Source: Effrenium voratum
Lineage: Eukaryota > Sar > Dinophyceae > Suessiales > Symbiodiniaceae
Assembly (NCBI GenBank): GCA_963377175.1
Contig: CAUJNA010003793.1
Location: 1 to 64,000, forward strand
DNA: 64,000 nucleotides
Reading direction: 5' to 3'
Translations under genes and position numbers: made by a program
Shown here: positions 476 through 31,279 of the stretch, one piece after another
Layout: the number at the start of each line of letters is the position of its first letter
Numbering within the stretch: the first letter of the stretch is position 1
Notes under the pieces: model-generated
Seen by the model: only the letters and a program-made list of their open reading frames with translations
Databases searched by the model: none
What the model was told of the DNA's origin: nothing

Positions 476-502
476 CGCTTGAGACCATCAACTACAAGCT
501 CT

Positions 503-2560
503 ATGTCGACCCCACGATCTCGCAGGAGTGTCGTGGATGAGGAGGCCATCCTAGGTGGCCTCCGCTCAGGTGAGGACCTGCCGGACTATGACTACGAGGA
601 TTTCGAAGCAGGTTCAACAGGTCAGGACCGCAGGGGTGAAGATCCCGGTAGGGATACACCCAGGGGCCGTGGCAGGTACGCCGACGATGGAGACGATCGT
701 ATTTTCCGCCAGGCCACTGATGACGAGCGGACACGAAGGGTTTACTCCGGTAGGAGTGGCTCTGAATCAGGTCACAGGCGTGGGCATTTTGACTTCACCA
801 GCATGGCGATGGACATGGCCCGCCCTCATTCGGATGACCCGGAGGCCATGCCGATTCGACCTCCGAGATCTCTTGTTCCAGGTGAGTCGCAGGTCTCGGA
901 TGAGTTTGAGAGTAGGCCGCAGGGACCAGGAACTATGGTTCTGGTTCCGGGAGGTATCCCGGGCCGATCCACTGGTTCTCAGAATCCAGGTCAGTGTGAT
1001 GAGCACGAGGAGCGGAAATTCACGGACTTCGGATACGATGATCTGTTGAGATCAACCGCAGGTTGGGGCAGTAGCTCAAAACAGGGATCTGATGCCGGTA
1101 GGCCCAACCCTAATACTGCCAAATCTGAGTCTTATGATGGCGAAGATTACAATTTTGCGGATGAGGAGGAGAGCCATTCGCGCCGAGATGCAGGCAGCCG
1201 TGAGACTGCAAGGGCTAATCCCGCCGCTGCCAAGTTTGAGGTCGATGATGATGATGAGTATGCCGCGTTTGCGGATCGCCGTGATGAGGAGGAGGACCAA
1301 CCACGACGAAATGCTAGGATCCGTGATGCTGCGAGGCCCAGGAGCCTCTCTCGTGGAGCCGTCAGGGACCTTCGTGTTGACAGGGACGCCAGAAGCGAGA
1401 GAGAGAGAGCCAGGGAAAGTCGGGAAGTTCTTCGGGGATTGGAGGCCATTCATGACCGCGAGGGACCGGTAGGTCCCCCGGCTATTGGTGATTCCCCGAA
1501 TGTTCCCCCCTTTCCCAACATCACATTTGGAGGTCCGTTGAGTCAGAGAGACGTGAGCTCGAACCGGGTTACTGGTTCACCGAGGATCACTGAGCGGGCT
1601 GCCGATGTTGTTGGGACAGGTGCCAGAGATGGTCGGCTTGCCGATGCACTCGGGATCGAAGATCGTCCGTCGATCGCTAGCCCGTTAGGGCGAGATACCA
1701 GTGATCTTGAAACTCTGAGGTCAAGCAATGAGTTCACACCTCAATGGGGTTCGACTGCCAGGGAACGTAGTGTTTCTGCAAAGAGACCGCCACCTCTCGC
1801 CGCTGAGACCGATAGGTCAAAGGCGAGGAGGGCTAGCCCCTCACCAATGGATTCAACTCCGCAGGATGAGGAGATGCCCGATCCCGCTGATGTTCACATC
1901 CACTCCACCCCCGAGTCACGTGCATCCAACATTGATCCTCGATCTGGCGATAGCCGGAGAAGGGGATCTACCCCGAGTAGACCATCCAGGATTGATGATT
2001 GTCCTGTGGATGACCCCGGAAGACATGCCGGGGCTAGTGGGGCTCCTGAGAGGATCGAGATATCGACTCCTCCCGCCCTCAGATCTCAGTCTTCCGGCGA
2101 ATCAGCTGACGCTAGGGCGAAGGAGGTGTTCGATTTGCACATCCAGGAGATGCTCGAGAGAGGTGAGGTTTCCGGCTCAGTCGCGAAGGCGTTCCACATC
2201 TTTGCTGACCAAATCAGGGTACTGAACGGTCAGGTGGGTTCCATGCGAAGGGAATGGAGCGACGAGAGTCAACGGACAAAGGACAAGGTCGATCGCTTGG
2301 CAGCTGAGGTTGCGACCCAATCTGATGCCGGGAGGATGCGACTGATAGTTCAACGGTTCGCGAGGGAAGTTATTCCCGATAGCAAGGCCATTGTGAGGCA
2401 AGCCATCGATGAGCAAGCCGAGGTCGTGGAGCAGAGGATTAACCTACTGTCCCACGAGGTCCATGAATCTGTCAGGGACAATGAGGCATCGACTGATCGG
2501 CTTCGCCTGATGATTCAGGAAAATAGTGAGGCTGCCCGCAGAAGCCATGCTCCTCAGTAG
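503..2560 (+). CDS. Retrotransposon ORF1, disordered protein with C-terminal coiled coil
   Basis: No known family is recognised. From the first ATG (503) the frame encodes 685 residues. A TTG at 479 would add eight. The first ~540 residues are low-complexity, rich in R, D, E, S, G and P, with acidic runs near codon 250 and an Arg-rich stretch near codon 300. The last ~140 residues (nt 2110-2550) have the heptad-like, Ala/Glu/Arg-rich look of a coiled coil. The next ORF continues with another coiled coil in the -1 frame, open across 2530-2575, so ORF1 may be the N-terminal part of a Gag polyprotein. Many GNTA micro-hairpins lie within it, for example 642-655, 947-962 and 1462-1477. A structural or RNA-binding role is inferred from position only. 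Confidence 0.8.
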   Translation: MSTPRSRRSVVDEEAILGGLRSGEDLPDYDYEDFEAGSTGQDRRGEDPGRDTPRGRGRYADDGDDRIFRQATDDERTRRVYSGRSGSESGHRRGHFDFTSMAMDMARPHSDDPEAMPIRPPRSLVPGESQVSDEFESRPQGPGTMVLVPGGIPGRSTGSQNPGQCDEHEERKFTDFGYDDLLRSTAGWGSSSKQGSDAGRPNPNTAKSESYDGEDYNFADEEESHSRRDAGSRETARANPAAAKFEVDDDDEYAAFADRRDEEEDQPRRNARIRDAARPRSLSRGAVRDLRVDRDARSERERARESREVLRGLEAIHDREGPVGPPAIGDSPNVPPFPNITFGGPLSQRDVSSNRVTGSPRITERAADVVGTGARDGRLADALGIEDRPSIASPLGRDTSDLETLRSSNEFTPQWGSTARERSVSAKRPPPLAAETDRSKARRASPSPMDSTPQDEEMPDPADVHIHSTPESRASNIDPRSGDSRRRGSTPSRPSRIDDCPVDDPGRHAGASGAPERIEISTPPALRSQSSGESADARAKEVFDLHIQEMLERGEVSGSVAKAFHIFADQIRVLNGQVGSMRREWSDESQRTKDKVDRLAAEVATQSDAGRMRLIVQRFAREVIPDSKAIVRQAIDEQAEVVEQRINLLSHEVHESVRDNEASTDRLRLMIQENSEAARRSHAPQ

Positions 2561-2574
2561 AGAAAACCGTTGGG

Positions 2575-5500
2575 ATGCGGACACCGGCAGGTGTATGGAA
2601 CCCGAATCCTGTCGCGAATCTGTCCGATAGGGCCAGCAGCAGTGTAGTTGACGCGAATTTCAGGGAGTTAAACCTGAAGATTGGGGATGCTCTCCTTGAA
2701 CACGAGAAGTTTGCTAAGTGGGCCTCTGAATCTATTGAAGGGGTCAAAGAAGAGCACACTCGTCTTGTTAATCGAGTGTCTAGACTGCAAAGTGGAAGGG
2801 GATCTCAGGAGGTCGATAGACCATCAGGGCATGATTCCCCGCAGGACTGGCATGAGGCTGTTGACGAGATCAATCGGAAGATGCATGATCTGGCTCGAGG
2901 AATTCAACGTCAACGTCGGGATCATGATGACATCATTTCGAGGTTTGAAACCGTGAAGTCACATGTTGAACAGTATGAAGCGAGATCGGCAATTGTGAAT
3001 CGGGTCGTTGATGGCATCCAAGGGCAGATCCGTAATCTTCCTGCCAGCAGTGACCAAGTGCAGCCTGCCGTTAGGCGAGAGCTCGGCACATTCCGGAGTA
3101 CACTTGAAGGTGTTATGCGGAGAGTCAGCGCTATCGATGGTAACGTGCGTAACCTTAGCGCCGCGAACAACAGAATCATGTCCCAGCTCTTTGAGATGGA
3201 GGGTCAATTTGACGAGGCTGCTGGCATGCTTCAGGGTGTCCAGCAGATTAATGAAGCTCCTCCACAACCCAGAGAAAGACGGAATGTTGGTTACCATGCG
3301 TTTGCGGGGCAAGGACATAGGATCAGGTCACCGACGCCTACACCAGGGGATGGTGACGGCCGGGGTACTGGCCTGCCGGCGAGACCAGGCGAAGGCGTTG
3401 TTTTGCCTGATCATGTTTTGCCGAATGTGCCCGATAGGGTCGATCCTTCTCGCGCAGACAGGCATCCCATCTATCCCGTTAGGGAGAGGTCCGACAGCAG
3501 GAGCAGGAGAGTTCGGGGGTTGCCTGACAGGTCGCATTCGCCACCGGAGCGTGCTAGGGGTGGTCCCCGCGCGCGCGCAAGGGGGGACGTTTCTATTTCC
3601 CCCAATAGGGATGCGGGTAGGAATAGGAGCCCGAGGCCTGCTGCCGTCCCCGATAGGGGATCTGAGGCCCGGAGTCGACAACCGAGGGGGGAGAGGCCGA
3701 TCCGCGATAGCGGGAGCGTCTCTCCGAATTTTGATAGGCCAATCCGCGATAGCGGGAACGTCTCTCCGAACCCAGGTCGTCATTCAGGAGGTGGTGGGGA
3801 TAATAGGGCCCATGCCGACATCCAGAGTCCTGGTGATGAGTGGAGGACTCCTGGGAGCAGAGTCAGCGCCGACAACCAGAGTCCCGGCGATAGGCGAGGG
3901 ACTGCTGGAGCTCCTTCGGATCGTGGACAGGCCTCAGCGCCGGCTGCAAGAGGGGCTCCCGGCGGTGATGGCCCAGACGCGCCGAAGATTTGTGCCCTTG
4001 ATGATCCCAACGACCGTAGGCACCCGAATGCTGAATTCTCGTGTGTGACATGCAGTCGTGAGTTCTGCGGGCTTTGCCGTGGTGACGATGGGGACTGTTG
4101 CAATTGTCATTTCTTGAAGATGAAATGCTGGGCATGCCGCAAGAATGCTCAGGAGGTCTCCATGTATCTCTGCACGGATTGTGGGACTCACGTCTGTGAG
4201 AATCACAGTTACTTCGGAAATGACGGCCTTGAGCGATGTGCACGCTGCAATATTCGGCATGAACGCGCTCAAGCTGGACCGCCCCCTCCTCCTCCTCCTG
4301 GGGGAGGTGGTGGGCGAGGCGGATCACCTGGTCAAGGTGGAAGCGGAAGTGGTGGGCCTGGACATGCCCCAGCTCCACCGCCAGGTCCTGGACATTATGG
4401 TGGAGGCCAAGATCCCGCTGGGCCTTCTGGAGGCCCGAGTGGAGGGGCTCATACCGGGGGTTACCCTGGTGGAGCGCCTGGGTTCCACGGTAGTGCTGCG
4501 GATGTTCATGGGATTGGGAACAATCAGTGTGGATCCAGCTTCTATGGTCCTGCCTACGGAGGTGGCGTTAGTCACCAAGGGGTTGGCGCTGGCGTTAGTC
4601 AGTCTAGCAATGCCACAGGTTACCCCTCAAGTGTTGCGAGCGGTGGTAACCTTGGGCCGGGTCTTAGCCTCGGCTATAGTGTGAGTGGTGCCGGTAGGCA
4701 GGGAGATGGTGGTCTTCTCCCTGAGGCCTTGAGGGGAGATGATGGACGGGACAGGTGCACAAAGTGCAGCAGAATCCCTGAGCCTGGTTTCCCTCTTGTT
4801 CCTTGCGTTGGTTGCGGAATGAGGGCGTGTGAAGTTTGCTGCCCTATGCCTGCGAGACTGTGTGAAAGTTGCAGGATTACCTCATGTACCCCGATAGGGG
4901 CTCTCATTTCCACCGTTGTCGATAAGGACCGGTTCCATCACAAGTGCAACACAATCGTGCTGCCTGCCGAGCCGACAGCTGATAAGCTGCGGGAGTGGCT
5001 TTCAGAGATCAAGGAGAGGGTCAGGAATGCTTTCAGCTTTGACTCTGACTACGCGTTAGCGTGGATATCAGAGACTGAGAGGCTTGACTATGATGCTCTT
5101 GGCGGACCCTGCAAGTACCCGATTTTGGACTCAAACTTCACGAGCGCTATCAGGGAGTGTATCAAGACCAGGGCTGTTAGGGACAAGATGAATCGCCTGA
5201 CCGAAGCCGCTCAGAATATGAGTCCCCCGCAGGGTATCAAGGGGAGACAGATCTTGAAGCTTCTGCTGAACCACCTGCAGACTGGAGTCGAAGACGACCA
5301 GACCTTCAAGATCGCTGAGTTGACCAGCCTTAAGTGCCGGCAGACAGGTCACTCCGATGATGAGGCAAGGCTCCGGAGTTATCTGAGCACCTGGGACAAT
5401 CTCATTTCTGGGATTAGGAAGAAGATCGATGATGGGGTACTATTGGCTGTGTTCATCGAGAACGTTCGTCATCTGCGCTGTATGCGGCCTGACATTGAAA

Positions 5501-6270
5501 GGTGGGATCGCGATATGACCGTTAGGTCGTTCGCGTGGCTTTATAAGGCTTGTCAGGACTGTGTAGAACGGTGGCAGAAGCGCCAGAATACGCTCCAGAT
5601 GTACCAGACCTTTCACGAACAAAGGTCACGATCAGGCTCTCAATCCCGGGAGAGGGATCGGCATCCTGGTGCCCCTGGTGTTGTACGGCGGTACGACCCA
5701 CTTGCCAGGAAGAGTGATCCCAGCCCTTCAAGGTCCGTTAGGTCCGGAAGGGATGGGAAACCCGACGGAAAACCAAGATCATCTTCGCCCGGAAGGAGCA
5801 GTCAAAGGGACAGGGCTTCACCAGGAAGAGGCAGTCAGAGGGACAAGCGCACGCCATCTCCCAAGTCGCCGAGAAGACAGTCCCCTGCTGGGCCTGCTGA
5901 TCGGGCGTGCTGGGAGTATACAAAGACTGGGAAGTGTCAATATGGCCGGGAATGCAGGTTTGAGCACGACAAGAGCCCAAGGAACCCCGCTGCGCCTTCT
6001 ACGCCGAGGACTGGAGATAGGCCCGTTAGGGACAAGCCTATGTTCTTCGGATACTGCTACGACTGGATGTATGGCAAGTGCACAGCTCAGCCGTGCAAGT
6101 ACCTGCATCAGAAGCCACCACCAGGCACGAAGCCTATCACGCCTCGTTCCACTGCCGGTCCTGTTGTTGAGGATGAAGAGGGGGATACCCCTAGATCGCC
6201 AACGCCCAGTCCTCCCGATAGGGAGGCGAGGCGTCTCGACAGCCCCGCTCAAGGATTGACGGAATTTTAG
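2575..6270 (+). CDS. Retrotransposon ORF2, Gag-like protein with Cys-rich modules and CCCH fingers
   Basis: The frame encodes 1231 residues from ATG 2575. In order it has a coiled coil (about residues 20-230), an Arg/Pro-rich disordered region, a Cys/His module (about 473-560) with several CxxC pairs, a Gly/Pro-rich linker, and a second CxxC module (about 727-772). Next comes a helical region (about 790-1015) resembling a Copia-type Gag capsid domain, then an Arg/Ser-rich stretch. Two CCCH zinc fingers follow: CX8CX5CX3H near residue 1112 and CX7CX4CX3H near residue 1161. Copia Gags normally use CCHC knuckles, so CCCH fingers are unusual. The likely role is RNA binding and particle assembly. 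The -1 frame opens at 6222 and runs into ORF3, so Gag-Pol fusion by -1 frameshift is possible. The Gag assignment is by position and fold impression, and the fingers are seen directly. Confidence 0.82.
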   Translation: MRTPAGVWNPNPVANLSDRASSSVVDANFRELNLKIGDALLEHEKFAKWASESIEGVKEEHTRLVNRVSRLQSGRGSQEVDRPSGHDSPQDWHEAVDEINRKMHDLARGIQRQRRDHDDIISRFETVKSHVEQYEARSAIVNRVVDGIQGQIRNLPASSDQVQPAVRRELGTFRSTLEGVMRRVSAIDGNVRNLSAANNRIMSQLFEMEGQFDEAAGMLQGVQQINEAPPQPRERRNVGYHAFAGQGHRIRSPTPTPGDGDGRGTGLPARPGEGVVLPDHVLPNVPDRVDPSRADRHPIYPVRERSDSRSRRVRGLPDRSHSPPERARGGPRARARGDVSISPNRDAGRNRSPRPAAVPDRGSEARSRQPRGERPIRDSGSVSPNFDRPIRDSGNVSPNPGRHSGGGGDNRAHADIQSPGDEWRTPGSRVSADNQSPGDRRGTAGAPSDRGQASAPAARGAPGGDGPDAPKICALDDPNDRRHPNAEFSCVTCSREFCGLCRGDDGDCCNCHFLKMKCWACRKNAQEVSMYLCTDCGTHVCENHSYFGNDGLERCARCNIRHERAQAGPPPPPPPGGGGGRGGSPGQGGSGSGGPGHAPAPPPGPGHYGGGQDPAGPSGGPSGGAHTGGYPGGAPGFHGSAADVHGIGNNQCGSSFYGPAYGGGVSHQGVGAGVSQSSNATGYPSSVASGGNLGPGLSLGYSVSGAGRQGDGGLLPEALRGDDGRDRCTKCSRIPEPGFPLVPCVGCGMRACEVCCPMPARLCESCRITSCTPIGALISTVVDKDRFHHKCNTIVLPAEPTADKLREWLSEIKERVRNAFSFDSDYALAWISETERLDYDALGGPCKYPILDSNFTSAIRECIKTRAVRDKMNRLTEAAQNMSPPQGIKGRQILKLLLNHLQTGVEDDQTFKIAELTSLKCRQTGHSDDEARLRSYLSTWDNLISGIRKKIDDGVLLAVFIENVRHLRCMRPDIERWDRDMTVRSFAWLYKACQDCVERWQKRQNTLQMYQTFHEQRSRSGSQSRERDRHPGAPGVVRRYDPLARKSDPSPSRSVRSGRDGKPDGKPRSSSPGRSSQRDRASPGRGSQRDKRTPSPKSPRRQSPAGPADRACWEYTKTGKCQYGRECRFEHDKSPRNPAAPSTPRTGDRPVRDKPMFFGYCYDWMYGKCTAQPCKYLHQKPPPGTKPITPRSTAGPVVEDEEGDTPRSPTPSPPDREARRLDSPAQGLTEF

Positions 6271-6323
6271 GCGGGGCGGGCCGTTACCCTGAGGCCAACC
6301 GTGTTGTTGTGGCGTGTCCAGCT

Positions 6324-8951
6324 ATGTGGGCTGTTGCCCCAGCTACCGGTGGGTCTGCACCGGGTTGCCTTCCTCCTTGCGTTAGCAGTTGGGAGAAAAG
6401 CGAGCGAGGCGCATTGTTCTTCTCCGGCACTACCGGTGGAGGTCCTAAATGGGACCAAGTCATTTGGAGACGGACAGTTGACGCAAATGGGACCGTGATC
6501 GAGGATATCGGGGTGAACTTTTGTGATCGCCGAGCAACCTTGTTCAGGAGACTCCCAAGACGAAGTGATACCAAGACGACGTTTTGGTACTGTGATGATG
6601 CGGAGGTTGCACTGTCCTGGTTCCCGAAGGGTCCCGGTAGGGAACCTCTCGGGGTCAAGATTCCCGATCTTCCTGATGTGTTTGTTGTCTCGATTGAGAA
6701 TGACAATACGGGTAGGGTCGTGAATCGCTGCCGTGAGGCTGGATACAGCCATCCAAATGCGATCAAGTTCCCTTCGCGCAAGAGAATTGCTAGGGAGGTT
6801 CAAAGTGCTCTGATAAGAGCAGCGGCTGTTCACGCCCAAGTGCTCTTGGACAATGACGAGGACATCGATACCAACCCTGGTGATGTGCGGGGACATCGCG
6901 TTGTACGAAAGCCAAAGTACACTCAGAAGGTCGCTGCACCTGTTGGATACGGTGGGGTGAGGTGGCTGGTAGATACTGGTTGCCCAATGGATCTGGTCGG
7001 TCTCGATGATTTGAAAGGACCCGATAGGGCCCTGATTGCCAAAGGCGGACACACTCATGCGCTGCACACTGCCAACGGGGCGACTCGCACCGCTGGTCGT
7101 GTTGACGCCGATGCTGGCAACCTGGACGAGGTGATTGAGGCACACGTCCTTGAGTCCACTCCATCCATCATATCCGTTGGAAAGCGTTGTATGGATATGG
7201 GATATTCGTTTGAATGGGCTGCAGGTTGCAAACCTATTCTCACGTGTCCTTCGGGCCGAACGGTGACATTGGATGTCGTCAACAACGTGCCATATCTTCC
7301 GTATGGTGACACTCAGTTCGTTTCTCCCACTCTTGATGATGCTGAGCCAATCCCTGCTATGCCTGCCCCCGGGGCGGCGTATCGAGGGCCTGAAACCAGC
7401 GAAATTCCGCTGTGCAAATCTGAGCTTGCGGCCAAGAGTGGGCTACAGGACACCTGGCGCACTGAGCGGTCGGGCCATGTTGTGAAGGAGCACCGGCTTC
7501 CGCGCAAAGCAAAGTTTGTGCCGATAGGCGATGATTGCCCCGTTGGGGTTGATCGATTGGATAACTACAGGAAAACTGTCGTTCATCGAAATGGGGTTAC
7601 CCATGAGGTGCTGGTTGATAGTCTATGGGAGTTATCCGAAAGGGATCAGCATGCGATAGCATCTGATGTCCCTTGGACGGGTGAAACGTGGTTTCGGGTC
7701 AAGTGCGAGACCGTCGCTCTTCCCGGAAAGGCGGAACAGGGGGGTGAGGGCGGTAGCCACTCACCACCTTTTCCTGGCCCGGGGGAAGGGGATGATGGTG
7801 ACATAGTCGAGATAAATTTTCTCTCCGGACTCCGCACAGAGGCTGAATGGCGGGCTGATGCTAAGACGCTTCGCCATATGCTTACCCATCTCCCGAAGAA
7901 CCCCTATTGCCCGCACTGCCAGCGTGCGAAAATGGAGAATGTCAAGCTTCGCCGCAAAGGTGGTGCTGCTGCGCATGACGTGGTAAGTTTCGGGGACCTA
8001 ACCACTGCTGACACGATGGTGTTGCGCGGATTGAAGGATCGAGGCTTTCATGGCGAGGCGGACGCGATAGTGTTCTATGACCTCGCTACTGATTACCTCG
8101 AAGTCCTCCCTGTGCAATCCAGATCCCGTAGCAATACGCTGGAGGCATTTCGCAGGTTTGCAGGGGGGCAAACTCTGAAGTTAGTGTACAGCGACCAGGC
8201 CCCAGAGCTGAAGAATGCTGTCACTACGCTTGGAGCATTGCACCGGCTTTCTACACCGGGCATGCCCAAGACCAATGGCCTGATCGAGAACAAGGTTAAG
8301 CTCGTTCTTCACGGGGCACGTGTGCTCCTGCGTCAAGCTGGATTTGAACCTCGATGGTGGCCATTTGCCGTTAGGCATTTTTCCATGGCAAGGAACATCG
8401 AAAATCGCGGTGAGGGATCACCGTGGATGCGACGCCACGGTAACGGGAACTTCAGCGGAGTCATTCTGCCGTTTGGTTGTCTGGTCGACTTCTACCCCAT
8501 TGCTCCCAAGATTCGCAGGGATAGAAAGGGGGGGGTTCAAAACGCCCAAAACGACTTCAGACATGCTGGAAAGATCGACTCAGAGGACGTTGATGAAGGA
8601 GGAGACCACTGGATCGCAAATGAAGACGAGAAGGTTCTCACTCGCGTCCACGTTGAAGCGCGAACCGAGCTCTTTATCCCGATAGGGACGAGCTGTCCAG
8701 TCAAGATCAAAGACCTTGGCAGGAGGCGGAGCACAGTCCTCAACTATCTGACGGATCGACCGAATTCGTTGTTGACGAAAACTGGCTCCAGGCCGAAAAC
8801 GACCGTGGAGGTAACCACGAATGGACTGGAGAAACTCATTTCGACTGTGATTTTGATCAGATCGATGAGGATGAGGCCGAGATCTATGAGAACGAGGAGT
8901 ATGAACCCGAATGCAACGACGAACCGGACTTTGTTCCCATTGATGAGGTAG
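6324..8951 (+). CDS. Retrotransposon ORF3, aspartic protease and Copia integrase
   Basis: The first in-frame ATG is at 6324, but the frame is open from 6222 and overlaps ORF2 in the -1 direction. An N-terminal ~210-residue region is unrecognised. The retropepsin motif VDTGCP lies at 6969-6986. The integrase HHCC zinc site (HMLTHL...CPHC) is at about 7876-7920. The integrase core follows, with Asp in GDLTTAD (7995-8012), Asp in YSDQAPE (8193) and Glu in GLIENK (8286), giving D-X30-E. Genuine coding sense in this frame fades after about 8750. The rest to 8951 reads as a shifted shadow, while the integrase tail continues in the frame of the next entry. Two copies of a module with PIGxxCPV occur near 7515-7640 and 8640-8790. 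Confidence 0.9.
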   Translation: MWAVAPATGGSAPGCLPPCVSSWEKSERGALFFSGTTGGGPKWDQVIWRRTVDANGTVIEDIGVNFCDRRATLFRRLPRRSDTKTTFWYCDDAEVALSWFPKGPGREPLGVKIPDLPDVFVVSIENDNTGRVVNRCREAGYSHPNAIKFPSRKRIAREVQSALIRAAAVHAQVLLDNDEDIDTNPGDVRGHRVVRKPKYTQKVAAPVGYGGVRWLVDTGCPMDLVGLDDLKGPDRALIAKGGHTHALHTANGATRTAGRVDADAGNLDEVIEAHVLESTPSIISVGKRCMDMGYSFEWAAGCKPILTCPSGRTVTLDVVNNVPYLPYGDTQFVSPTLDDAEPIPAMPAPGAAYRGPETSEIPLCKSELAAKSGLQDTWRTERSGHVVKEHRLPRKAKFVPIGDDCPVGVDRLDNYRKTVVHRNGVTHEVLVDSLWELSERDQHAIASDVPWTGETWFRVKCETVALPGKAEQGGEGGSHSPPFPGPGEGDDGDIVEINFLSGLRTEAEWRADAKTLRHMLTHLPKNPYCPHCQRAKMENVKLRRKGGAAAHDVVSFGDLTTADTMVLRGLKDRGFHGEADAIVFYDLATDYLEVLPVQSRSRSNTLEAFRRFAGGQTLKLVYSDQAPELKNAVTTLGALHRLSTPGMPKTNGLIENKVKLVLHGARVLLRQAGFEPRWWPFAVRHFSMARNIENRGEGSPWMRRHGNGNFSGVILPFGCLVDFYPIAPKIRRDRKGGVQNAQNDFRHAGKIDSEDVDEGGDHWIANEDEKVLTRVHVEARTELFIPIGTSCPVKIKDLGRRRSTVLNYLTDRPNSLLTKTGSRPKTTVEVTTNGLEKLISTVILIRSMRMRPRSMRTRSMNPNATTNRTLFPLMR

Positions 8952-19308: not shown

Positions 19309-19319
19309 CCCAGTCCTTC
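19309..19319 (+). repeat. Left terminal inverted repeat of foldback element
   Basis: CCCAGTCCTTC is the exact reverse complement of 26470-26480, and both sit at the points where retroelement coding sense stops and restarts. Confidence 0.7.
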
Positions 19320-20218: not shown

Positions 20219-20715
20219 AAAAGGAGAGAGAAAGAGAAAGAGAAAGAGAACGAAGAGAATAATACAGAAGAACAGCGGAAGAGGAAGAGAAAGAACACGA
20301 GCAAGACAAAAAGAAAGGTAGCGAGAAAAAGAAAGATAAAGAACAAAAGACAGAGAAAAAAGAGAAAAAGAGAAGGAGACAAAGAGAGAAAGAGAGAAAG
20401 AAAGACATAAAGACGGAAAGAAAGAAAGACAGACATAAAGAAAGAAAGCAAAGCAACAAAGACAGAAAGAAAGAAAGACAGAAAGAAGGAAATAAAGAAA
20501 GAAGGAAAGAACTAAATAATGAAAGAAAGAAAGAAAGAAAGACAGAAAGACAGACAGAAAGAAAGAAGTAAATGAAAGAAATAAAGAACTAATGACATAA
20601 CGAAGGAACAAGGAGAACGACAGACAGACAAACAGACAGACAGAAAGAAAGAAAGACAGAAGTAAAGAAAGAAACAAATAAAGAACTAATGACATAACGA
20701 AAGCAAATGGCGAAC

Positions 20716-20749
<34 letters not shown>

Positions 20750-21060
20750 AATAAAGAAAGAAAGAAAAATAAAGAAAGGGAAAGATAAATACATAATCAT
20801 TTACAGAAAGAAAGACATAGCAAGGAATAAATAAATCAATAAAGAAAGAAAGACACAATCAATGAGTAAAGAAATGAATGAATAAACGAGAAATGTTTGA
20901 ATAAAGACATGAATAAATACAATAAAGAAAGAAAGAACGGAAGACACAGAGAACGAGAGAAATACCAAGACAAAGAGAAAGAGAGATACAAAGACGAAGA
21001 TAAAGAGAAAACGAGAGAAAGATAAAGATAAATAGAGAGAGAGAGAGAGAGAAACAGAGA
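20219..21060 (+). repeat. Purine-rich (GAAA/GACA) tract in left arm
   Basis: About 840 bases consist almost only of A and G with scattered C and T, dominated by GAAAGA and GACA. It mirrors the pyrimidine tract at 25130-25910. The long minus-strand frames here (rich in S, F, L) are translation artefacts of the repeat. Confidence 0.85.
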
Positions 21061-21780
21061 AGGGGAAAACAAGCCTGCTGCAAACTATCGTTCTTATAGT
21101 TTTGAAACGTCTGCCAACCGGCTTCGCCGGCTTCACGGGTGTACAAACTGTTCCCGTTCTTTTACTTTTGTCGTTGGTTGATGTTTGGTACTTGGACCAA
21201 GCCCTGGGACCCTCCCATTTCCCCAGCATTGCCCTGAGATTGCTTGCGGTGTCTCTCCTGTTTTTGTTCCTTCGCTTGATGTTGATTTTCTTTGTGCCTT
21301 TGCAGGCGTCACCTGGCCAACATGTTCTAGTTATGTTCAAAACACTGTTCATCACCTTTGCTTTCCCTTTTCTCATGGGAACTTTGTTATCTTCATTGCG
21401 TTTGCCTTCTTTGGGTTTGGTGGCGTGGAAATTTACGAAAACATGATGAACCAGAAAAAAAGGGCTGCTGGCTTTCAATTGGTCCCTTGGCCAGGGTGGA
21501 TGGTGATGGAATTATGCCAGATAGTATGAACATATTTTTTGCAGGCGTCCCACTTAAAACATGATATGGGTCAAATTGTTTTTTGCAAAATTTGATCAAC
21601 GATGCGTTGGATCAAAATTGATCAAACATGAATTGCTGGGAAGCACGTGGAATTGAGAGCGAACCCAAAAATGGAACGCTAACTAGTTTTCCCTGTGTGG
21701 TTGCGAGTTCTAGGGAAAATCATGTTGAGCCATCTTAATTGAAATCAAAACCCCTCGAAAAGAGGGTGTCAACCCCTCGA
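21061..21780 (+). repeat. Left inverted arm, conserved unique-like segment
   Basis: It matches the reverse complement of about 24420-25110 at high identity, judged by eye. Each copy can be read as a ~130-codon open frame (minus strand here, plus strand at right). The frames differ by few residues, which may reflect recent duplication rather than protein selection. Confidence 0.75.
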
Positions 21781-21929
21781 AAAGAGGGTGTCACCTACGG
21801 CAACTGTAACCGCGACTCCTTGGGAAGAGGGTGTCACTCTTGGCCCAACACCCCTTGAGAAAAGGGTGCCATCCATGATAATTATTTCGTCGAAATACTT
21901 TAACACATAAAGACATGTAGTCACCAATT

Positions 21930-22890
21930 TGTCTGACAAAAGATTGGGCTGCAAAATGTTGAGACCACAGAAAGTTGTAGTCCAAATATGTTCCTTAATT
22001 GTATTGCATTTGTCAAAAGATGTTCAACTATCCCAAATTGTAATTACCAACTTATTTGTCAAGCATTTGGCCTGCAAATGCTTGAGGCCGCCGCACATGT
22101 GTAGTCCAAATATGTTCCTTAAATAACAAGTTGCTGTCAATTCTTTGGCCCGCAAATGTTTGAGGCCACAAGAGGCTATAACCCCGGATTGTCCCTTTCT
22201 CTATTTTTGAATTTGTTGGCCCACAAAAATGTGTAGTCACCAATCCCTTTTGTCATACATTTGGCCTGCAACATGTTGAGGTCACAGCGCATTGTAGTCC
22301 GGAAATGTTGCTTAACTATACTTTCAACATATGTTGGCCCATAAACATGTAGTCACATGTTTTGTCAAGTTGTTGGCCTGCTAACTTTTGAGGCCACAGT
22401 TGCAGTCCAACAAATGCTCAATGTCAAGCATTTGGCCTGCAAATGTTTGAGGCTGCCGTAAATGTGTAGTCCAAATATGTTCCTTAAATAGCAAGTTGCA
22501 GTCACCAATTTGTCTGTCAAATCTTTGGCCCGCAAATGTTTGAGGCCACAAGAGGCTATAACCCCGGATTGTCCCTTTCTCTAATTTGTTGGCCCGCAAA
22601 CATGTGTAGTTACCAATCCCTTTTGTCATACATTTGGCCTGCAACATGTTGAGGTCACTGGACATTGTGGTCCGGAGATGTTCCTTAACCGTACTTTCGA
22701 AATATGTAGGCCTATAAACATGCAGTTACATGTTCTGTCACATATTTGGCCTGCAAACTTTTGAGGCCACAGGAAGTTGTAGTCCACAATTCTCAATTAA
22801 CACACATGTAGCCACCATTGTGTTTTTGTTCAACTATGTGTCCTGCAACATTATGGGGCCACCCACACAAAAAAGTAAAACGGTTAGGGG
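21930..22890 (+). repeat. Tandem repeats, left side of foldback centre
   Basis: Degenerate units of roughly 55-60 and 110-120 bases each contain TTGGCCTGCAAA followed by TTTGAGGCCACA and TAGTCC. Each unit has its own TGGCC/GGCCA mini-inverted repeat. Inverted copies fill 23090-24260. Around 21755-21850 a CCCTC...GAGGGTG unit is also repeated. Confidence 0.7.
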
Positions 22891-22914
22891 CATCACCCGG
22901 GAATATGATTGTTA

Positions 22915-23050
22915 AATAGTTGTTAAATTTTAACATCCATTTAACATCATTTAACATCCAATTACCTTTAAAAGTAAATGACAATTGATGTTAAATGTTG
23001 TTAAATTGATGTTAAAATTTAACATCAATTTAACATGTATGGGAAATATA
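22915..23050. repeat. Centre of the foldback element, TTAACAT repeat
   Basis: An A/T-rich stretch of repeated TTAACAT and its complement ATGTTAA can fold on itself. It is close to the symmetry axis of the two arms. Confidence 0.65.
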
Positions 23051-23089
23051 ATTTAGGGACATCCCTGGATTACAATTTCCTGTGGGCTC

Positions 23090-24260
23090 AACCTGTTGAA
23101 GGCCACATATTTGACAGAAGGGAATTTCTGGGATGCGTTTGCAGGCCAACTATTTGACAAACCATGTGACTACATGTGTATGGGCCAGCATATGTTGAAG
23201 GTATAGTTAAGGAACATCTCTGGACTACAGTTTCCTGTGGCCTCAACATTTTGCAGACCAAATGTATGACAAAGGACATTGGTGACTACACAATTTCATG
23301 GGCCAACAAATTTAAGAAAAGAAAGGGACATTCCTGGGTTACAGTTTCTTGTGGCCTCAAACATTTCAAAGCCAAGGATTTGACCGTTCAATTGGGAACA
23401 TAGTTGGACTACAACTTCCTGTGGCCTCAAAGGGTTTGCAGGCCAAATATGTGACAGAACATGTAACTGCATGTTTATGTGCCTACATATGTTGAAAGTA
23501 TAGTTAAGGAACATCTCCGGACTACAATGCGCTGTGACCTCAACATGTTGCAGGCCAAATGTATGACACAAGAAATTGGAAACTACACAATTTTATGTGC
23601 CAGCAAATTCCAAAAACAAAACGGAGTTACAGTCTCTTGCGGCCTCAAACATATGCAGGCCAAAGCTTTGACAAACAAATTGGTGACTGCAATTGTTGAA
23701 TTAAGGACGATATTTGGACTACAAATTTACGGCGGCCTCGAACATTTGCAGGCCAAATGCTTGACATTGAGCATTTGTTGGACTGCAACTTCCTGTGGCC
23801 TCAAAAGTTAGCAGGCCAAAAACTTGACAAAACATGTGACTACATGTCTATGGGCCAACATATGTCCAAAGTACGGGTAAGGAACATCTCTGGACCACAA
23901 TGCGCTGTGACCTCAACATGTTGCAGGCCAAATGTATGACAAAAGGGATTGGTAACTACACATTTTTGTGGGCCAACAAATTCAAAAATAGAGAAAGGGA
24001 CAATCCGGGGTTATAGCCTCTTGTGGCCTCAAACATTTGCGGGCCAAAGAATTGACAGCAACTTGTTATTTAAGGAACATATTTGGACTACACATGTGCG
24101 GCGGCGTCAAGCATTTGCAGGCCAAATGCTTGACAAATAAGTTGGTAATTACAATTTGGGATAGTTGAACATCTTTTGACAAATGCAATACAATTAAGGA
24201 ACATATTTGGACTACAACTTTCTGTGGTCTCAACATTTTGCAGCCCAAACTTGTGTCAGA
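23090..24260 (-). repeat. Tandem repeats, right side of foldback centre
   Basis: Inverted counterparts of the units at 21930-22890, recognised by TGTGGCCTCAAA, TTTGCAGGCCAAA and GGACTAC in the same relative order. Confidence 0.7.
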
Positions 24261-24419
24261 CAAATTGGTGACTACATGTTTTTATGTGTTAAAGTATTTC
24301 GACGAAATAATTATCATGGATGGCACCCTTTTCTCAAGGGGTTTTGGGCCAAGAGTGACACCCTCTTCCCAAGGAGTCGCGGTTACTCGTGGGTGACACC
24401 CTCTTTTCGAGGGGTTGAC

Positions 24420-25110
24420 ACCCTCTTTTCGAGGGGTTTTGATTTCAATTAAGATGGCCCAACATGATTTGCCCTAGAACTCGCAACCACACAGGGAAAA
24501 CTAGTTAGCGTTCCATGTTTGGGGTTCGCTCTCAATTCCACGTGCTTCCCAGCAATTCATTTGTGATCAATTTTGATCCAACGCATCGTTGATCAAAATT
24601 TGCAAACAAAAGTTGACCCATATCATGTTTTAAGTGGGACGCCTGCAAAAAATATGTTCATACTATCTGGCATAATTCCAGCACCATCCACCCTGGCCAA
24701 TGGACCAATTGAAAGCCAGCAACCCATTTTTTTTGGTTCATCATGTTTTCATAAATTTCCACGCCACCAAACCCAAAGAAGGCAAACGCAATGAAGATAA
24801 CAAAGTTCCCATGAGAAAACGGAAAGCAAAGGTGATGAAAAGTGTTTTGAACATAACTGCGACATGTTGGCCAGGTGACGCCTGCAAAGGCACAAAGAAA
24901 ATCAACATCAAGCGAAGGAACAAAAACAGGAGAGACACCGCAAGCAATCTCAGGGCAATGCTGGGGAAATGGGAGGGTCCCAGGGCTTGGTCCAAGTACC
25001 AAACATCAACCAAAGACAAAAGTAAAAGAAAGGGAACAGTTTGTACACCCGTGAAGCCGGCGAAGCCGGTTGGCAGACGTTTCAAAACTAGAAGAACGAT
25101 AGTTTGCAGC
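24420..25110 (-). repeat. Right inverted arm, conserved segment
   Basis: Reverse complement of 21061-21780. An example is CCGGCTTCGCCGGCTTCACG (21118-21137) against its complement at about 25050-25070. Small differences show the arms have begun to diverge. Confidence 0.75.
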
Positions 25111-25129
25111 AGGCTTGTTTTCCCCTTCT

Positions 25130-25130
25130 C

Positions 25131-25171
<41 letters not shown>

Positions 25172-25910
25172 ATCTCACTTTGTCTTTGTCTTTGTTTCTC
25201 TCTTTCTCATTGTCTTTTTATTTGTCATGTTCTTTCTCTTTCTCTCTTGCTCTCTTGCAATCTTTATCTCTTTATCTTTCTCTCTTTGCCTCTTTCTCTC
25301 CTTCTCTCCTTCTCTCTTTCTCTTTGTCTTGTTATTCCTTGCTTTCTAAATTCATGTCTTGATTTATTTATTTATGTTTTCTTTCTTTAGGTATTTATGT
25401 TTGTCTTTCTTTATTTATAGTTATTTATGCATGTCTTTCTTTTTGTTGATTTGTTTCGTCATTTCTTTCTTCATTTATTTCATTGTTTTCTGTATTGGTT
25501 TATCTCTTTATATCATTGTGTTTTTTATTTCTTGAGTTATTTCTTTCTTTATGTCTTCCTTTCGTTGTTTATGTTCCTTCTTTGTTTCGTTATTTATGTG
25601 TTTAGGTATTTCTTTCTTTATTTATTTCTTTCGTTATTTCGTTCTTTCTTTCTTTCTTTCTGTCTTTCTTTCTTTCTTTCTTTTTTATTATGTTTTCTTT
25701 CTTTCTGTCCTTTTGTCTTTCTCTCTCTCTCTTTCTATCTTTCTTTCTTCATCTTTCTCTGTCTCTTTCTCTTGCGCATTTTTCACTTCTTTCTCTTTCC
25801 CGCTCTCTTGTTGTTGTTATCTTTCTCTTCCTCTTCATATTTCCCTTTCTCTTCTTTTTCTCTTCTTTTTCTTTCTCGTCATCTCTCTCTCTCTCTCTCT
25901 CCCCTTTTTG
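25130..25910 (+). repeat. Pyrimidine-rich (CTTT/TCTC) tract in right arm
   Basis: Nearly pure C/T sequence, starting with a TC microsatellite and continuing as CTTT variants. It is the mirror of the purine tract in the left arm. In supercoiled DNA such tracts can form triplex structures. Confidence 0.85.
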
Positions 25911-26469
25911 GAACAAGGAGGAGCCCTGCGCTCCTTTTGGAGCTGACAGCCCTTGCCTTGCGCCTTGCAGCAAGTGTTCTTTTCATCTCCTTCGCGCGTC
26001 ACCGCTGCGGCCTGGGAGTGGAAACAGGAATGCCATTTGTTTTTTGAGCGGGGTGAAACATGCAAATGTCTGAAACTGATTAAGTGGGCACAAAGCGCGC
26101 AAGTGCAAGCTTTCAGGAGCTAGCGACTACCTTCTTTTCGCGTACAATCAAGCACATTTAGGAGCAAGCGGCTTCCTGATTTTTGCTTACGGGCTATAGA
26201 GACTGTAGGAGGAGCCCAAGGCATCCTACGCTTTGTGCTAATGACAAAACATGTCACGCAACTGTGCCCGAGGCATCTGCGATATGGAAATGGAAAGTCA
26301 TGCCATGCAACAAAACTCAGCGAATATACTACGAGCATGCGCAGCTGACCCACGTCGGTTGACACGGATCCACGTCAACCCGAATCCTCGTCAAGTGTTT
26401 TTTACACGAATCCTCGTCAACTCGAATCAGCGCTGAAAAAAACGAATCCTCGCCATCGAATCCTCGCCG

Positions 26470-26480
26470 GAAGGACTGGG
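26470..26480 (-). repeat. Right terminal inverted repeat of foldback element
   Basis: GAAGGACTGGG, exact complement of the left end at 19309-19319; retroelement coding sense resumes directly after it. Confidence 0.7.
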
Positions 26481-29400
26481 AGGAAGGCCCGAGCAAGGCC
26501 TCCAACTACAGAGGGGCTACCGCTGAGGAGTACCGAAAGGCTGCTCGGGAATACGTGTACAGCGGGGAGGGAGATGATCGAAGAATCCTTCCCAAGAATA
26601 CTCCAATCAACATGGAGAAGTCGTTGCCGGCTGAGGTCGCGCTCCTGATTCCTAGAGCTGTGGCCACGCAAGAGGAGGCTGAGGAAGCCGAGAGGACCGC
26701 GATGGAGGCCATCCGCGGGGACTATAGGCTTCCGGACGTGGGTCAGGACGACAGGGAGAATGTCGACCCTTACACCGTGACGGACGAAGACTTGGCTGCG
26801 TCGGTAGACGCGTTGACTAGGAGGTTGAGCAATATGCCTGGATGGTCGGGGAATTTGATCGACCCTGTGAAGTCTGCTGAGCTGGTCGCGGCGAGATGGG
26901 GCGGTAAGGCGAGTTATGACAAGCCTGAGGCTCCTCTGACTGAGGCTGGGATGAAGAGTGCGTCATTGGAGGATCGTGCCTACGCACTATCGCAGCTGAA
27001 TCAGATGGTGAACTTCCACAAGAAGCACCTCTGCTCTGGGCGAGGAGCGCCTCTGGTGAGTGCAGCTGCCCCTAGTGGACCCTTTGCTCCGGACCAGCTA
27101 GATGATAGCAGGAAGTTCAGGCCGAGTGGGGCGGCGAGCAAGATGACCTACAATCTTGTGATACTGGATGGGAAGGAGGATTATCTTGCCGATAGGCGAG
27201 AAATCAATCCGGAGCTAAGGGAAACGGGAGTTATCCCTGATGAGGCCGTCACTTGCCAGATTGTGGTTCCCTCGAAGACGAGATTGGGTGAATACCTCCC
27301 AAACTACGAGGAGACAGTGGGCACTGTTGCAGGACGGGAGGCGGCGAAGGAGTTGATGAGACTGCTCTCGTGCGATTTCGACGGCTTGGTCATCAATTCA
27401 AAGAGAGTCTCGGAGTTATTCGAGGAACGTGTGCTGAAGGAGACCGGACGCGAGGCTGGAAACTGGGTGAAAAGTGACCAGGCCATCTGGTTCCTGAAGG
27501 AGATTTCGGGTATGGAGAACGCTGAGATGTCTTGGAAGTTCTTCATTCCGACGCTTAAGGCTTTCCCGATAGGGCAAGTGGAGGCGATGCTCATGGTCAT
27601 GTACGACGGGGATGGCGTTCTCCTCAAGGAGAGCACCAGGTTGGTTGCCGTTAGGCACACGCGGATCGGACGCGACTTGAGTTACAGTGCCGTTAGGCAA
27701 AGGTATACTCAGGAAGATGCACCTGGCGGATCTCTAATGTACGAGATGCATTGGAATGAACTCCCCATGGTGGGATACGTCATCATGAAGTTCTCGGACT
27801 TTCGGAAGGCGGTTCAGCTCCAAAGGGTGAGGCGCAATGGAAAGGCCATGATCGAGATATTGATCACGAGGCCCGATGTGTACGAGACCATTGGGGATGG
27901 TAGGCAGGATGAGGGCCTGATCCCACTTGTGGGAGCCATGGCGCCGGATGCTGAGGTATCGCCTTCGTGGTATGTCAGGGACAGGCTGCGGAACTACTCC
28001 GGTAGGTACGTGGTGGTAATGGTGGATCTTCGGGTGCACTGGTCCTTGGTTGGACCCGTGTTTTTGACGAGAAGGAAGACTCTTGCCGTTAGGAACGAGA
28101 TCCACATGGGAGCTTGGAAGGCGGCGTATATGTACGATGATTACACAATAGTGTACCATCGGGCATGGGACTACGGTGACTTCACCCCCGTTAGGGGAGA
28201 GCACAAGCGATCACGGGAAGAGGTCAGGCTGAATGTGACTGCCACGTTCTGTTTGAGGTGCGCGGAATTGATGCCGAATGGGATGCACTTGTGTCCCGGG
28301 TGCGCGCTCCCGGTCTTTTACCCGAACTTTATCCCCAACGCGGAGGAAAAGGACTTCGAAACGTGCCACATCGTGCCGGAGTGGGTGAGGACCATGGGGC
28401 AGTTCAAGCCCAGGAGGATTCCCTCCGAAGTGGTCGGAGTCATCAAGAGGAATTTGATTTCCTATTCGATGGCATCCGATCTAAGGATGACGGTGCAGAG
28501 CGGCATCAGACTTCCCCCTTATCTTGGTGAAGACAAGGGAGGTGTCGATGCGGCGTGGGATGAGCTGGCGAAGGTGCTCTTCCAATTCTCCTATGTGTCC
28601 GGGATTTCGGCCTCGGATGCGTTTGTGGAGAAGTGGGTGGCGAAGCACCTGATCAAGACCAACCAAGTCGATAGATTTGAGTCGGTCACGGAGTATTTCC
28701 GAGCCAATCCAAGACACGCTGCGCAGTGGGGTAGGCGTATGACGACTTCCGTTAGGAAGTTCGCTCGTCATGACACGTACTTGTCATTCTATATCCCGAT
28801 GGCATACGTGATTGGTTCTGCGGCTGGTCATCTGACCCCATTGTACCCGACCCATCGAAAGGACGTGGACATCCTGGAGAGTCATGCGTTGATGTCGCAG
28901 CTCAGGGAGTACATGGTATCGGAGACAGGGTATGATGAGAAGAAGAGGTTGAAGGAGGCGATAGCCAAGGTGCAGAAGGCGATCAATGCCGGACAGTCGG
29001 AGCCTCCCGCACCATTCCGTGACCCATTCGTCTACGTTAGCGACGAAAGGGTGAGGACGGTTCTTGACGGTCGTCAACCCGAACCATTGAATGTGGACAT
29101 CGAGGGACTCCAATCAGTGCATCATGCTGCGCCGAGTCCTGGTCCCAGGCAGGAACCGGTCCCCAAGGGCGGAAAAGGAAAAGGGAAGAAGGGGGAAAAG
29201 GGCGGTAAGGGCGGTAGCCCTTCCGGCCCGCCACCAAAGTCAGGTGAAGTGCCGGGTAAAGGATCCGGTAAGGGCGGTAGCCCATCCGTCCCAAAGGCGA
29301 AGGATGACGCTGGACCTGCTCCGATGGAGGTTGATGCAGCAGCTGCTCAGCCGAAGAAGTCTTGGGCCGAGATGGTGGTTGAAGGGGCCAGGCCGAGTGC

Positions 29401-30310
29401 CAAGGCCAAAGTGACCCCGGTTCCCAAGGCAGAGCCGAAAGGGAAGGCTGCTTCGGCATCTGAGGCGAGGAGTGCTCCGGCTCCAAAAGCTGTGGCTAAG
29501 GAGACGAAGCAGGCCGAACCGAAGGTTGAGGTCAAGAAGGAGAAGACAGGCGGAGGTGACGCTCCCGGCGGTAGCCGCGGGTCGGCCGAAGGGCAGAAGA
29601 GAGAAAGGAAGTCCCGTTGGGATCCCGACGAGGCTGCGAAGGAGTCGACAAAGCGGGAGGCATCCACGAGGCCTGGCGATGTCGACAGCAGACCAGGTGC
29701 GGCAGCGAGAGAAGCTAGCGGGGATGATCTTCACTCCGCGCTTGGCAGATCTTCGGCAAAGGATGCGGTAGCGCCTTTGACTGCCTCCAAGGCGATGGCA
29801 AAGAAGCCTGAAGGCGGGGAGATCCGGCTGCAGTCTGCTGAGCGGGCTGCGGCGAGCCCGGTGGAGGGTCACTTCCTGGTGCTGCCTGAGAGTTCGGTGG
29901 TGGACGCTTTCTTGACGATCTCCACCAACAGAGTGCTGAACAAGCAGGTTAGGGATTTCATCAGAAATGGTGAGGACGCGTCGGCACTGGAAGCTCTCAA
30001 CCAGATCGTGACGAACTCTCAATCTGGGAGGAGGCGTAGGGAGTCGGATGTTTCCCGTACTCCTTCTCGGAGGTCCGTTAGGACCGTGGACACCAGGGAT
30101 TCCAGAGAGTCGAGGAGGCGCAGATATCGTCCGCGGCGCGAGGATGATCGCGACAGGAGGAGGGACGATGCTCGTGATCGTCGTGATGATGATTCACTCG
30201 ATCGGGAGCGGGATCGAAGGCGAGATGATCGCAGGAGATCCGAAAGGGATCGTGATAGGGACCGTGCGCGGGGCGGACGTGACCGGAGGAGACGTGACGA
30301 TAGCCGGTAG
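26481..30310 (+). CDS. Retrotransposon ORF6 (3' part), unknown protein with zinc ribbon and Arg/Asp-rich tail
   Basis: The frame is open from 26363, but retroelement sense starts at 26481. The first GTG and ATG are at 26555 and about 26612. It encodes roughly 1275 residues and resembles no family I know. A Cys4 zinc-ribbon pattern (CLRC ... CPGC) is near 28249-28310. From about 29150 the protein is disordered, rich in Lys, Gly, Pro, Ala and Ser. The last ~90 residues (30010-30310) are an RS/RD-rich tail of the kind found in RNA-binding and splicing proteins. The stop TAG (30308-30310) lies in the loop and first stem base of an AGCC-GGTA-GGCT micro-hairpin. The N-terminal part is separated by the nested element, so the gene is disrupted. 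RNA binding is inferred from the tail only. Confidence 0.75.
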
Positions 30311-30892
30311 GCTGAGTCACGAGGATTGCGGCCGATAGGCTTGCGTCCGTTCTCCAACGGTCGGCGCGGTGCGGAGGTGGCGATGTTCCTCCCGGACCGC
30401 TGAGGCGCGGAGGTCATGTCTCTCCCGTACCGCTGCTGAGCTGCTGGACGTGCTCATCCGGAAGCAGTATGAGTGAGAGGGAAAGCAAACTGATGGGGGG
30501 TTACTCCCGGGTTTGCGGAATTCAGGCATTTTTCAGGTACGCATGGTCAGGAGTACCTCTTGCCGTTAGGCGAGGGTACTAATGGACATACGTTATCTTT
30601 TATTTCATGGCTTCTGATAAGAATTAAACTTCTTGCATTTCTGATGCAAACAGTTGTGACCTATTGTCGTCATGTGGACTTTTCCACAAGGTATGTTGGA
30701 CAGCGTTACCCCGATTAATTCGGGGTGGTGGCGGGAATTTAATGCCCGGGATGTCGCGCAACTGCCTTTGTGGGTTTGCTCCACCGCTGACGGCGGTAGT
30801 GTCCAGCTGTTTGCGGACGCATGCGAGCAGTTAAATCCTATCAGTAAATGGCACGCTCCACCCGTCATATGACGGGCTCCTCGTGAGGGGGG
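30311..30892 (+). promoter_or_regulatory. 3' untranslated region of the retroelement with structured elements
   Basis: No frame of note is present. A GGGGG-GTTA-CTCCC hairpin lies at 30495-30508. A longer one at 30552-30580 has 12 pairs (two G:U), one bulged C and a GTTA loop. A 7-bp stem (ACCCCGA/TCGGGGT) follows near 30713-30731. Then comes a 16-base perfect palindrome, CCCGTCATATGACGGG, at 30861-30876, and last the polypurine tract. Confidence 0.6.
30885..30892 (+). promoter_or_regulatory. Polypurine tract (plus-strand primer)
   Basis: GAGGGGGG ends exactly at the first base of the 3' LTR, the position required for the plus-strand primer left by RNase H. Confidence 0.85.
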
Positions 30893-31274: not shown

Positions 31275-31279
31275 ATATA
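31275..31279. repeat. Right target-site duplication (ATATA)
   Basis: Matches 61-65 and follows the 3' LTR terminus directly. Confidence 0.75.

Follow-up and report, generated by a model that had tools for sequence, protein, structure and literature searches.

According to excerpts of the relevant reports, the packaging signals of single-stranded RNA viruses are many short stem-loops spread over the genome, with variable stems, a common short loop motif and redundancy among sites; the loops read (x)xYA in MS2 (PMC6281560) and GxU in human parechovirus 1 (PMC5431903), and RGAG loops are described for hepatitis B virus (PMC7612645). A related system is domain d of the enterovirus oriL, where, in the available portions of two reports, GNYA tetraloops at one or two sites are bound by 3C and the solved cGUUAg loop adopts a Z-turn (UNCG-like) fold (PMC5633025, PMC5311481). 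For the long terminal repeat (LTR) elements Ty1 and Ty3, whose Gag must also choose its RNA, the relevant section of a review states that scattered RNA sites likely contribute to packaging, places the named cis sequences of Ty1 near the RNA ends, treats the packaging sites as not clearly defined, and names no common hairpin (PMC4974528). Here we describe a giant, Copia-like LTR retrotransposon of the dinoflagellate Effrenium voratum that carries a dispersed hairpin array: about 100 short stem-loops with the loop G-D-T-A (D = A, G or T). The element lies in a 64,000-nucleotide stretch (GenBank assembly GCA_963377175.1, contig CAUJNA010003793.1, positions 1 to 64,000; hereafter the window), where it spans 66-31274, minus a 7.2-kb nested insert, with LTRs at both ends and six long open reading frames (ORFs) on the plus strand. 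The analysis covers one genome (an assembly of 1.156 Gb), two subfamilies of the element and one locus of another Copia family. A dispersed tetraloop array in a retrotransposon was not found in the open-licence PubMed Central literature, which is not proof of absence.

The array runs from 642 to 30619 on the plus strand. In a scan of all 256 tetraloops over the regions 471-19400 and 26401-30830 (23.4 kb), in which perfect Watson-Crick stems of at least 4 bp were counted, 71 of 256 GDTA tetramers were closed by a stem, against 0.47% of other tetramers, an enrichment of about 60-fold; the count reaches 101 once G:U-containing stems of at least 5 bp are included. From the excess over background, 105-124 of 257 GDTA are estimated to be real sites. 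The hairpin excess reported by an initial annotation of this DNA is thus real and stronger than it claimed, whereas its counts of 42 Watson-Crick stems and of about 50 with G:U stems were too low, and GATA (33/103), rather than GTTA (21/73), is the commonest loop, followed by GGTA (17/80). GCTA was never found in a Watson-Crick hairpin (0/46; probability about 3e-7 at the GDTA rate), as had been noted, although a lone GCTA hairpin whose stem uses G:U pairs lies at 18515. No other loop in the scan is comparably enriched, in agreement with the initial reading: the next loops by p-value have three hairpins each, the runner-up being GTCT (3/47, p 0.001 without adjustment for the 256 loops scanned), and GCAA is found at 2/89. 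In other copies of the element GDTA is followed by GGGG (up to 5 hairpins), GCAA (4 each in copies C343 and C1191) and AT-repeat loops in the insert of copy C3532. Among loops of 3 and of 5-9 nt, the sole comparable signals were GDTA hairpins counted again in a shifted stem register.

These loop preferences can be set against the described systems, within the limits of the excerpts cited above. The RNA form GDUA fits both the MS2 xxYA and the parechovirus GxU motifs, and GAUA, GUUA and GGUA each match the enterovirus G-N-Y-A closed by a stem. Unlike the one or two enterovirus oriL sites, about 100 sites are dispersed here; and whereas both middle positions of GNYA may be C and GCUA is functional in enteroviruses, the present array excludes C at position 2 from Watson-Crick hairpins and has GAUA and GGUA as common loops, and GNCA stands at background (3 of 421 tetramers in hairpins). 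A GNRA loop needs a purine at position 3, whereas all three enriched loops here have T.

The stems are mostly 4-6 bp long and share no sequence among hairpins. Over the first 19.4 kb the mean spacing is 230 nt and is compatible with random placement (Kolmogorov-Smirnov p 0.34), and no regular spacing was seen in the array. Hairpin density is similar across all six ORFs (3.4-5.3 per kb), and the non-coding parts also contain hairpins: three in the 291-nt gap between ORF4 and ORF5, three in 582 nt at the 3' end, and one in 437 nt of the 5' LTR and leader. In 41 hairpins the loop G is the first base of a codon and in 19 the third, which bears out the earlier observation that both these phases are used, and the remaining phase occurs as well (second base in 7). 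A 42-nt near-duplicate at 3686-3771 repeats one hairpin, with loops at 3706 and 3748.

Protein sequence does not account for the array, as the initial annotation had argued. Shuffles that keep the protein and codon use (n=60) gave 1.9 +- 1.3 hairpins with a maximum of 5, and shuffles that also keep dinucleotides (n=500; about half of the codons are altered in the ORF checked) gave 4.9 +- 2.2 with a maximum of 12, against 67 observed in the ORFs; all other tetraloops pooled remained at background, with 100 observed in ORFs and 95 shuffled. Outside the element, with both strands pooled, 3 of 926 GDTA lie in such hairpins: 1/318 in the window flank (at 47917), 0/93 in the nested insert, 0/63 and 0/17 in inserts of two other copies, and 2/435 in five 10-kb stretches chosen regardless of content. 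The claim that hairpins are missing from the nested element holds, and for the flank it fails by this single case. An unrelated Copia family, represented by one 4.5-kb locus from among 150 RVT_2 places in the matches listed, had none in 28 GDTA (coding strand 0/19, other strand 0/9) and no comparably enriched loop, the strongest being the triloop AAA (4/46). As the random stretches hold few clear genes, the coding control rests on the shuffles and on this one Copia locus.

Several features point to the plus-strand RNA as the form in which the array acts. Complementary loops on the plus strand of the window show no enrichment, and GDTA on the minus strand of element copies gives 0-2 hairpins per stretch, likewise without enrichment. 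Stems with one mismatch at GDTA comprise 27 G:U, 6 C:A and 38 others, compared with 65, 54 and 218 at other loops, an excess of G:U over C:A with a Fisher p of 0.005. Pairing declines toward background beyond about 5 pairs. With RNA energies and 100 nt of context on either side, the mean pair probability is 0.82 for GDTA hairpins and 0.32 for other tetraloop hairpins, and shuffling the flanks lowers the former to 0.67 (Wilcoxon p 6e-5). The initial proposal of a nucleic-acid-level system, with RNA favoured, thus agrees with the shuffles, the tetraloop scan and the homologous copies alike. As a separate observation, the second pair from the loop is a G(5')-U(3') wobble 13 times and U-G twice.

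Comparison of copies, an approach that the initial annotation had proposed, revealed compensatory stem changes, conserved loops and lowered synonymous change. The copies compared form a window-like group A (C441, C1813, C3532 and C3294; 96-99% identical) and a group B that is 82-84% identical to the window (C343, C1191 and C1202). In C343, 34 of 103 window hairpins are identical, 40 are changed but still pass, 24 fail, and for 5 the full 14 nt could not be mapped. Perfect GDTA hairpins are perfect there also in 52 of 68 cases, as against 34 of 98 for other tetraloop hairpins (p 1e-7). Substitution in the four successive loop columns is.03,.21,.07 and.05, compared with.169 overall; where a hairpin loop has changed, 19 of 29 remain GDTA and none became GCTA, whereas among changed GDTA outside hairpins 12 of 72 remain GDTA and 3 became GCTA. 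Double pair changes in the three B copies kept pairing by 11 to 1, against 461 to 479 in the control geometry (p 0.003), and single changes in the four A copies kept it in 9 cases and broke it in 2 (control 1185 to 1690; p 0.01). Synonymous codon change inside hairpins (45/367) is under half of that outside (1784/6351; p 1e-12), and non-synonymous change is also reduced (46/367 versus 1071/6351; p 0.03).

The individual hairpins, all on the plus strand, illustrate these changes. The first full Watson-Crick hairpin is ATCCC-GGTA-GGGAT at 642-655. That at 744-757 (ACTCC-GGTA-GGAGT) is altered in a compensatory manner to GCTCC-GGTA-GGAGC in C343, and the one at 947-962 (CCGGGA-GGTA-TCCCGG, loop at 953) combines a compensatory stem change with a loop switch in the same copy (CGAGA-GATA-TCTCG): here the encoded PGGIPGR became PRDISGR, three amino-acid changes, and the stem and loop class persist. 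In C343 a compensatory change at the fourth pair converts TCCC-GATA-GGGA (8677-8688) to CCCC-GATA-GGGG, and GCGTC-GGTA-GACGC (26798-26811) appears as GCATC-GGTA-GATGC. In the ORF4-ORF5 gap, AGGCA-GATA-TGCCT (14000-14013) reads AAGCA-GATA-TGCTT in C343 and is broken next to the loop in C1191. Both of these copies have GGCC-GATA-GGCC in place of GGCT-GATA-AGCC (15088-15099), and GGTC-GTTA-GACC in place of CGATC-GTTA-GATCG (16793-16806), with the third pair compensatory and the fifth lost. At 18911-18926, CCTTCC-GATA-GGAAGG corresponds to TTGCC-GATA-GGCAG in C1191 and to a GAGA loop in C343, and the 11-bp hairpin at 17067-17092, TTTTGAAGGAG-GGTA-CTTCTTCAAAG, which uses G:U pairs, has the loop AGTA in both. 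Two others fold in their own short context, namely GGGACC-GGTA-GGTCCC (1462-1477, in 36 nt) and CCTCCC-GATA-GGGAGG (6211-6226, in 38 nt, z -5.25). The longest Watson-Crick hairpin (7 bp), GCCTCGG-GGTA-CCGAGGC at 19284-19301, lies at the edge of the nested insert.

Individual sites also turn over. When at least 4 pairs are required and G:U is allowed, 71 of the 103 hairpins are kept in all mapped B copies, 9 in some, 18 are lost in all and 5 are unmapped; C343 itself has 95 hairpins, 74 in common with the window and 21 of its own. This gain and loss indicates that density, more than each site, is what is kept. B copies still have 8/24 and 7/22 GDTA in hairpins at a looser cut across the N-terminal half of ORF2, a region in which identity between the aligned predicted proteins is about 34-61% for most pieces. 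Twenty stretches beside other LTR matches comprised 9 of type A, 4 of type B and 7 of neither (taken as flank), and no third subfamily was found among them; at the looser cut 117 of 201 GDTA lie in hairpins in the 13 element stretches and 1 of 66 in the 7 that match neither subfamily.

Taken together, these results establish the array, its near-absence from the rest of the DNA sampled, its behaviour as structure in plus-strand RNA, and selection on it in two subfamilies. Such a pattern, one loop on stems of any sequence, dense and redundant along the whole RNA and specific to the element, is what repeated sites for one loop-reading protein would be expected to produce, and the even density in six ORFs and at non-coding sites suggests a function of the whole RNA, such as packaging, compaction, export or protection. 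We propose that the plus-strand genomic RNA would present about 100 short arbitrary-stem hairpins with one recognised tetraloop, G-D-U-A, and that one loop-specific protein could read many sites along it; the sites would act collectively, so that single ones may be gained or lost. The candidate reader is the element's own Gag-like ORF2 product with its two CCCH fingers, and the effect would be that the roughly 24-kb RNA is selectively packaged into the particle and compacted. Packaging by ORF2 is our first choice because the reader seems to be element-specific and the viral precedents use closely similar loops; for the full proposal, in which the reader and the packaging go beyond the array itself, we would put the chances at about even. 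With many stem-loops that have a common loop motif, lie on the sense strand only and are conserved through compensatory change, the array would belong, by analogy of working principle rather than as a proven member, with the dispersed packaging signals. It differs from the viral ones in its strict fixed-size tetraloop and its setting in a roughly 24-kb retrotransposon RNA. Among the three mechanisms offered by the initial annotation, a packaging signal is the best fit, if an unproven one.

Several points weigh against this proposal. CCCH fingers usually bind single-stranded RNA. The candidate Gag label of ORF2 rests on position and on these fingers, of which one barely exceeds its Pfam cut-off (25.0 versus 24.6 bits) and the other falls below it (20.9 versus 27); a Pfam search of ORF2 matched no Gag family, and a single-sequence AlphaFold model of its helical region had a predicted local distance difference test score (pLDDT) of 39 and was not used. 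In the B copies single pair changes comprise 19 that kept and 24 that broke pairing, against 2562 to 5195 in the control, and because just two subfamilies were compared the compensatory counts mostly reflect a single evolutionary split. Finally, Ty1 tolerates deletion of up to 5 kb of internal sequence with transposition unaffected, according to the section of the review mentioned above (PMC4974528), and dispersed sites would therefore not be a general need of Copia elements.

The foremost alternative is that the same RNA array is read by another protein, either of the host or the product of ORF1, ORF5 or ORF6, and serves to export a very long transcript from the nucleus, to stabilise it, or to keep it from being spliced or trans-spliced. 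The RNA-level evidence fits this equally well, and the spread over all ORFs and the short non-coding parts suits a whole-transcript function. Moreover, both LTRs, at 127-137 and 30954-30964, match the last 11 nt of the dinoflagellate spliced leader, as if reverse transcription had carried a trans-spliced RNA into the LTR, and the RNA of the element thus probably meets the host trans-splicing machinery. Nevertheless, the near-absence of hairpins from the host DNA sampled, which has few clear host genes, and their absence from the other Copia locus point to an element-specific reader, and we regard this alternative as unlikely though deserving of weight. An improbable further alternative is that an RNA-modifying enzyme recognises the loops and so marks the RNA of the element, e.g. 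with pseudouridine or methyl on U3 or A4: the strict U3 and A4, a position 2 free except for C, and short stems of any sequence would suit such an enzyme, but Pfam recognised none in the six ORFs, and there is no obvious reason for it to bar C at position 2.

It is very improbable that the hairpins have their role at the DNA level, in single-stranded cDNA or as cruciforms during reverse transcription or integration; they are encoded in DNA and strand-specific, and strand alone cannot separate plus-strand single-stranded DNA from RNA, but the preponderance of G:U over C:A is expected of plus-strand RNA, and the stem context looks optimised under RNA energies, the only ones used. Translation or frameshift signals, also suggested by the initial annotation, are barely credible: most sites do lie within ORFs, and neighbouring ORFs overlap in different frames, but about 100 sites face five ORF junctions, non-coding sites exist as well, and 16 of 59 scored reverse transcriptase (RT) places lie in a single open frame of exactly 2566 codons, whereas pol of the window copy consists of two overlapping frames (6222-13909). 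The further suggestion of scars from a mini-element that inserts as hairpins, which the many dispersed similar units might recall, is contradicted by the alignments and has next to no probability. Against C343, 97 of 103 window hairpins are gap-free, with 3 that have a gap within a few bases and 3 unaligned; 14 of the 21 hairpins found only in C343 differ from non-hairpin sequence by substitutions alone, with 3 at a gap and 4 in a region where divergence is too great for alignment. Hairpins therefore arise and vanish mostly by substitution rather than as insertions of the bypass-element kind, and their stems share no sequence. Chance, codon bias or a mutation artefact such as C-to-U loop editing is of negligible probability, for although GC-rich coding DNA slightly raises hairpin numbers, the shuffles fall far short of the observed count, and loop mutation cannot create extra stems, since other-loop hairpins stay at background.

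The architecture of the element is as follows. The 5' LTR (66-448, plus strand, 383 bp, with one G:U-containing GGTA hairpin, loop at 106) and the 3' LTR (30893-31274, plus strand, 382 bp) are in direct orientation with TG...CA ends, which identifies an LTR retrotransposon; ATATA at 61-65 and 31275-31279 is a possible but weak 5-bp target-site duplication, as it lies inside an AT repeat. All ORFs are on the plus strand. ORF1 (464-2560; 698 codons stop to stop) has 9 Watson-Crick hairpins, or 11 including G:U stems, within 503-2560. ORF2 (2530-6270), Gag-like by position, encodes a helix-rich region followed by the two CCCH fingers, C-X8-C-X5-C-X3-H at amino acids 1126-1147 and C-X7-C-X4-C-X3-H at 1176-1197; comparison with solved structures gave 9 weak matches, 7 of them across the CCCH region, and hairpins in 2575-6270 number 12 Watson-Crick and 17 with G:U stems. 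ORF3 (6222-8951; 7 and 9 hairpins, respectively, in 6271-8951) is the first part of pol by position, and an integrase upstream of the RT was not recognised there, as ORF3 gave no Pfam match. ORF4 (8657-13909; 13 and 19 hairpins in 8952-13909) contains a dUTPase domain inside the pol region (10763-11152; Pfam, 126.9 bits) and an RT of the type found in Copia elements, the LTR elements to which Ty1 belongs. Its RVT_2 match is weak (24.8 bits, E 1.9e-5, below the curated cut-off of 31.6), and it is 25.8% identical over 128 amino acids (E 2e-8) to the RT of the Copia locus, which itself scores about 124 bits. ORF5 (14201-19180; 16 and 22 hairpins) and the part of ORF6 that lies 3' of the nested insert (26476-30310; basic C terminus; 11 and 16 hairpins) have no Pfam match.

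The element is abundant: from 5679 loose candidates, 59 RT places were scored at 99-100% identity, a figure that includes the one in the window; a search of viral contigs and genome contigs confirmed no relative. The nested insert (19309-26475; 7.2 kb) is palindromic and not part of the hairpin system, and it is missing from the five copies that align on both sides of its position (C441, C343, C3294, C1813 and C3532). It has 41% GC and is a large near-palindrome whose arms measure 594 and 604 nt, with 97% and 93% complementarity, and whose outer arms are AAAG/CTTT-rich, and its flanks CTGGGAAG and CTGGGAGG are a likely 8-bp target duplication. The host flank contains two tandem arrays, GCTTCTTG in 46 copies at 56325-56691 and a 105-bp unit in 3.3 copies at 57313-57652. 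In one of the random host stretches (L027, 8472-9173) an ORF has a GPSKSGKT motif, and presumably resembles the packaging ATPase of polinton-like viruses.

The LTRs of the two subfamilies (L004, L006, L012 and L021 compared with the window) are about 99% identical, and their internal stretches differ by about 17% on average (10-33% depending on the stretch), a pattern which suggests recent recombination between subfamilies. In viruses, degenerate sites make dispersed packaging signals difficult to recognise, whereas here a strict tetraloop is visible by simple counting, and a scan of all tetraloops for stem enrichment offers a way to find such codes elsewhere. Given the strict tetraloop with its compensatory and synonymous-site support, the idea can be put to a direct test with a single protein and a single loop. 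More tentatively, and with somewhat less than even confidence, we propose a genome-wide RNA identity code of about one GDUA hairpin per 200 nt, kept at the expense of the protein sequence, by which the particle would pick and fold the 24-kb RNA, and through which the subfamilies may share packaging and recombine. If true, such a shared code would explain their near-identical LTRs. These observations suggest that an RNA code can shape the coding sequence of a retrotransposon from end to end.

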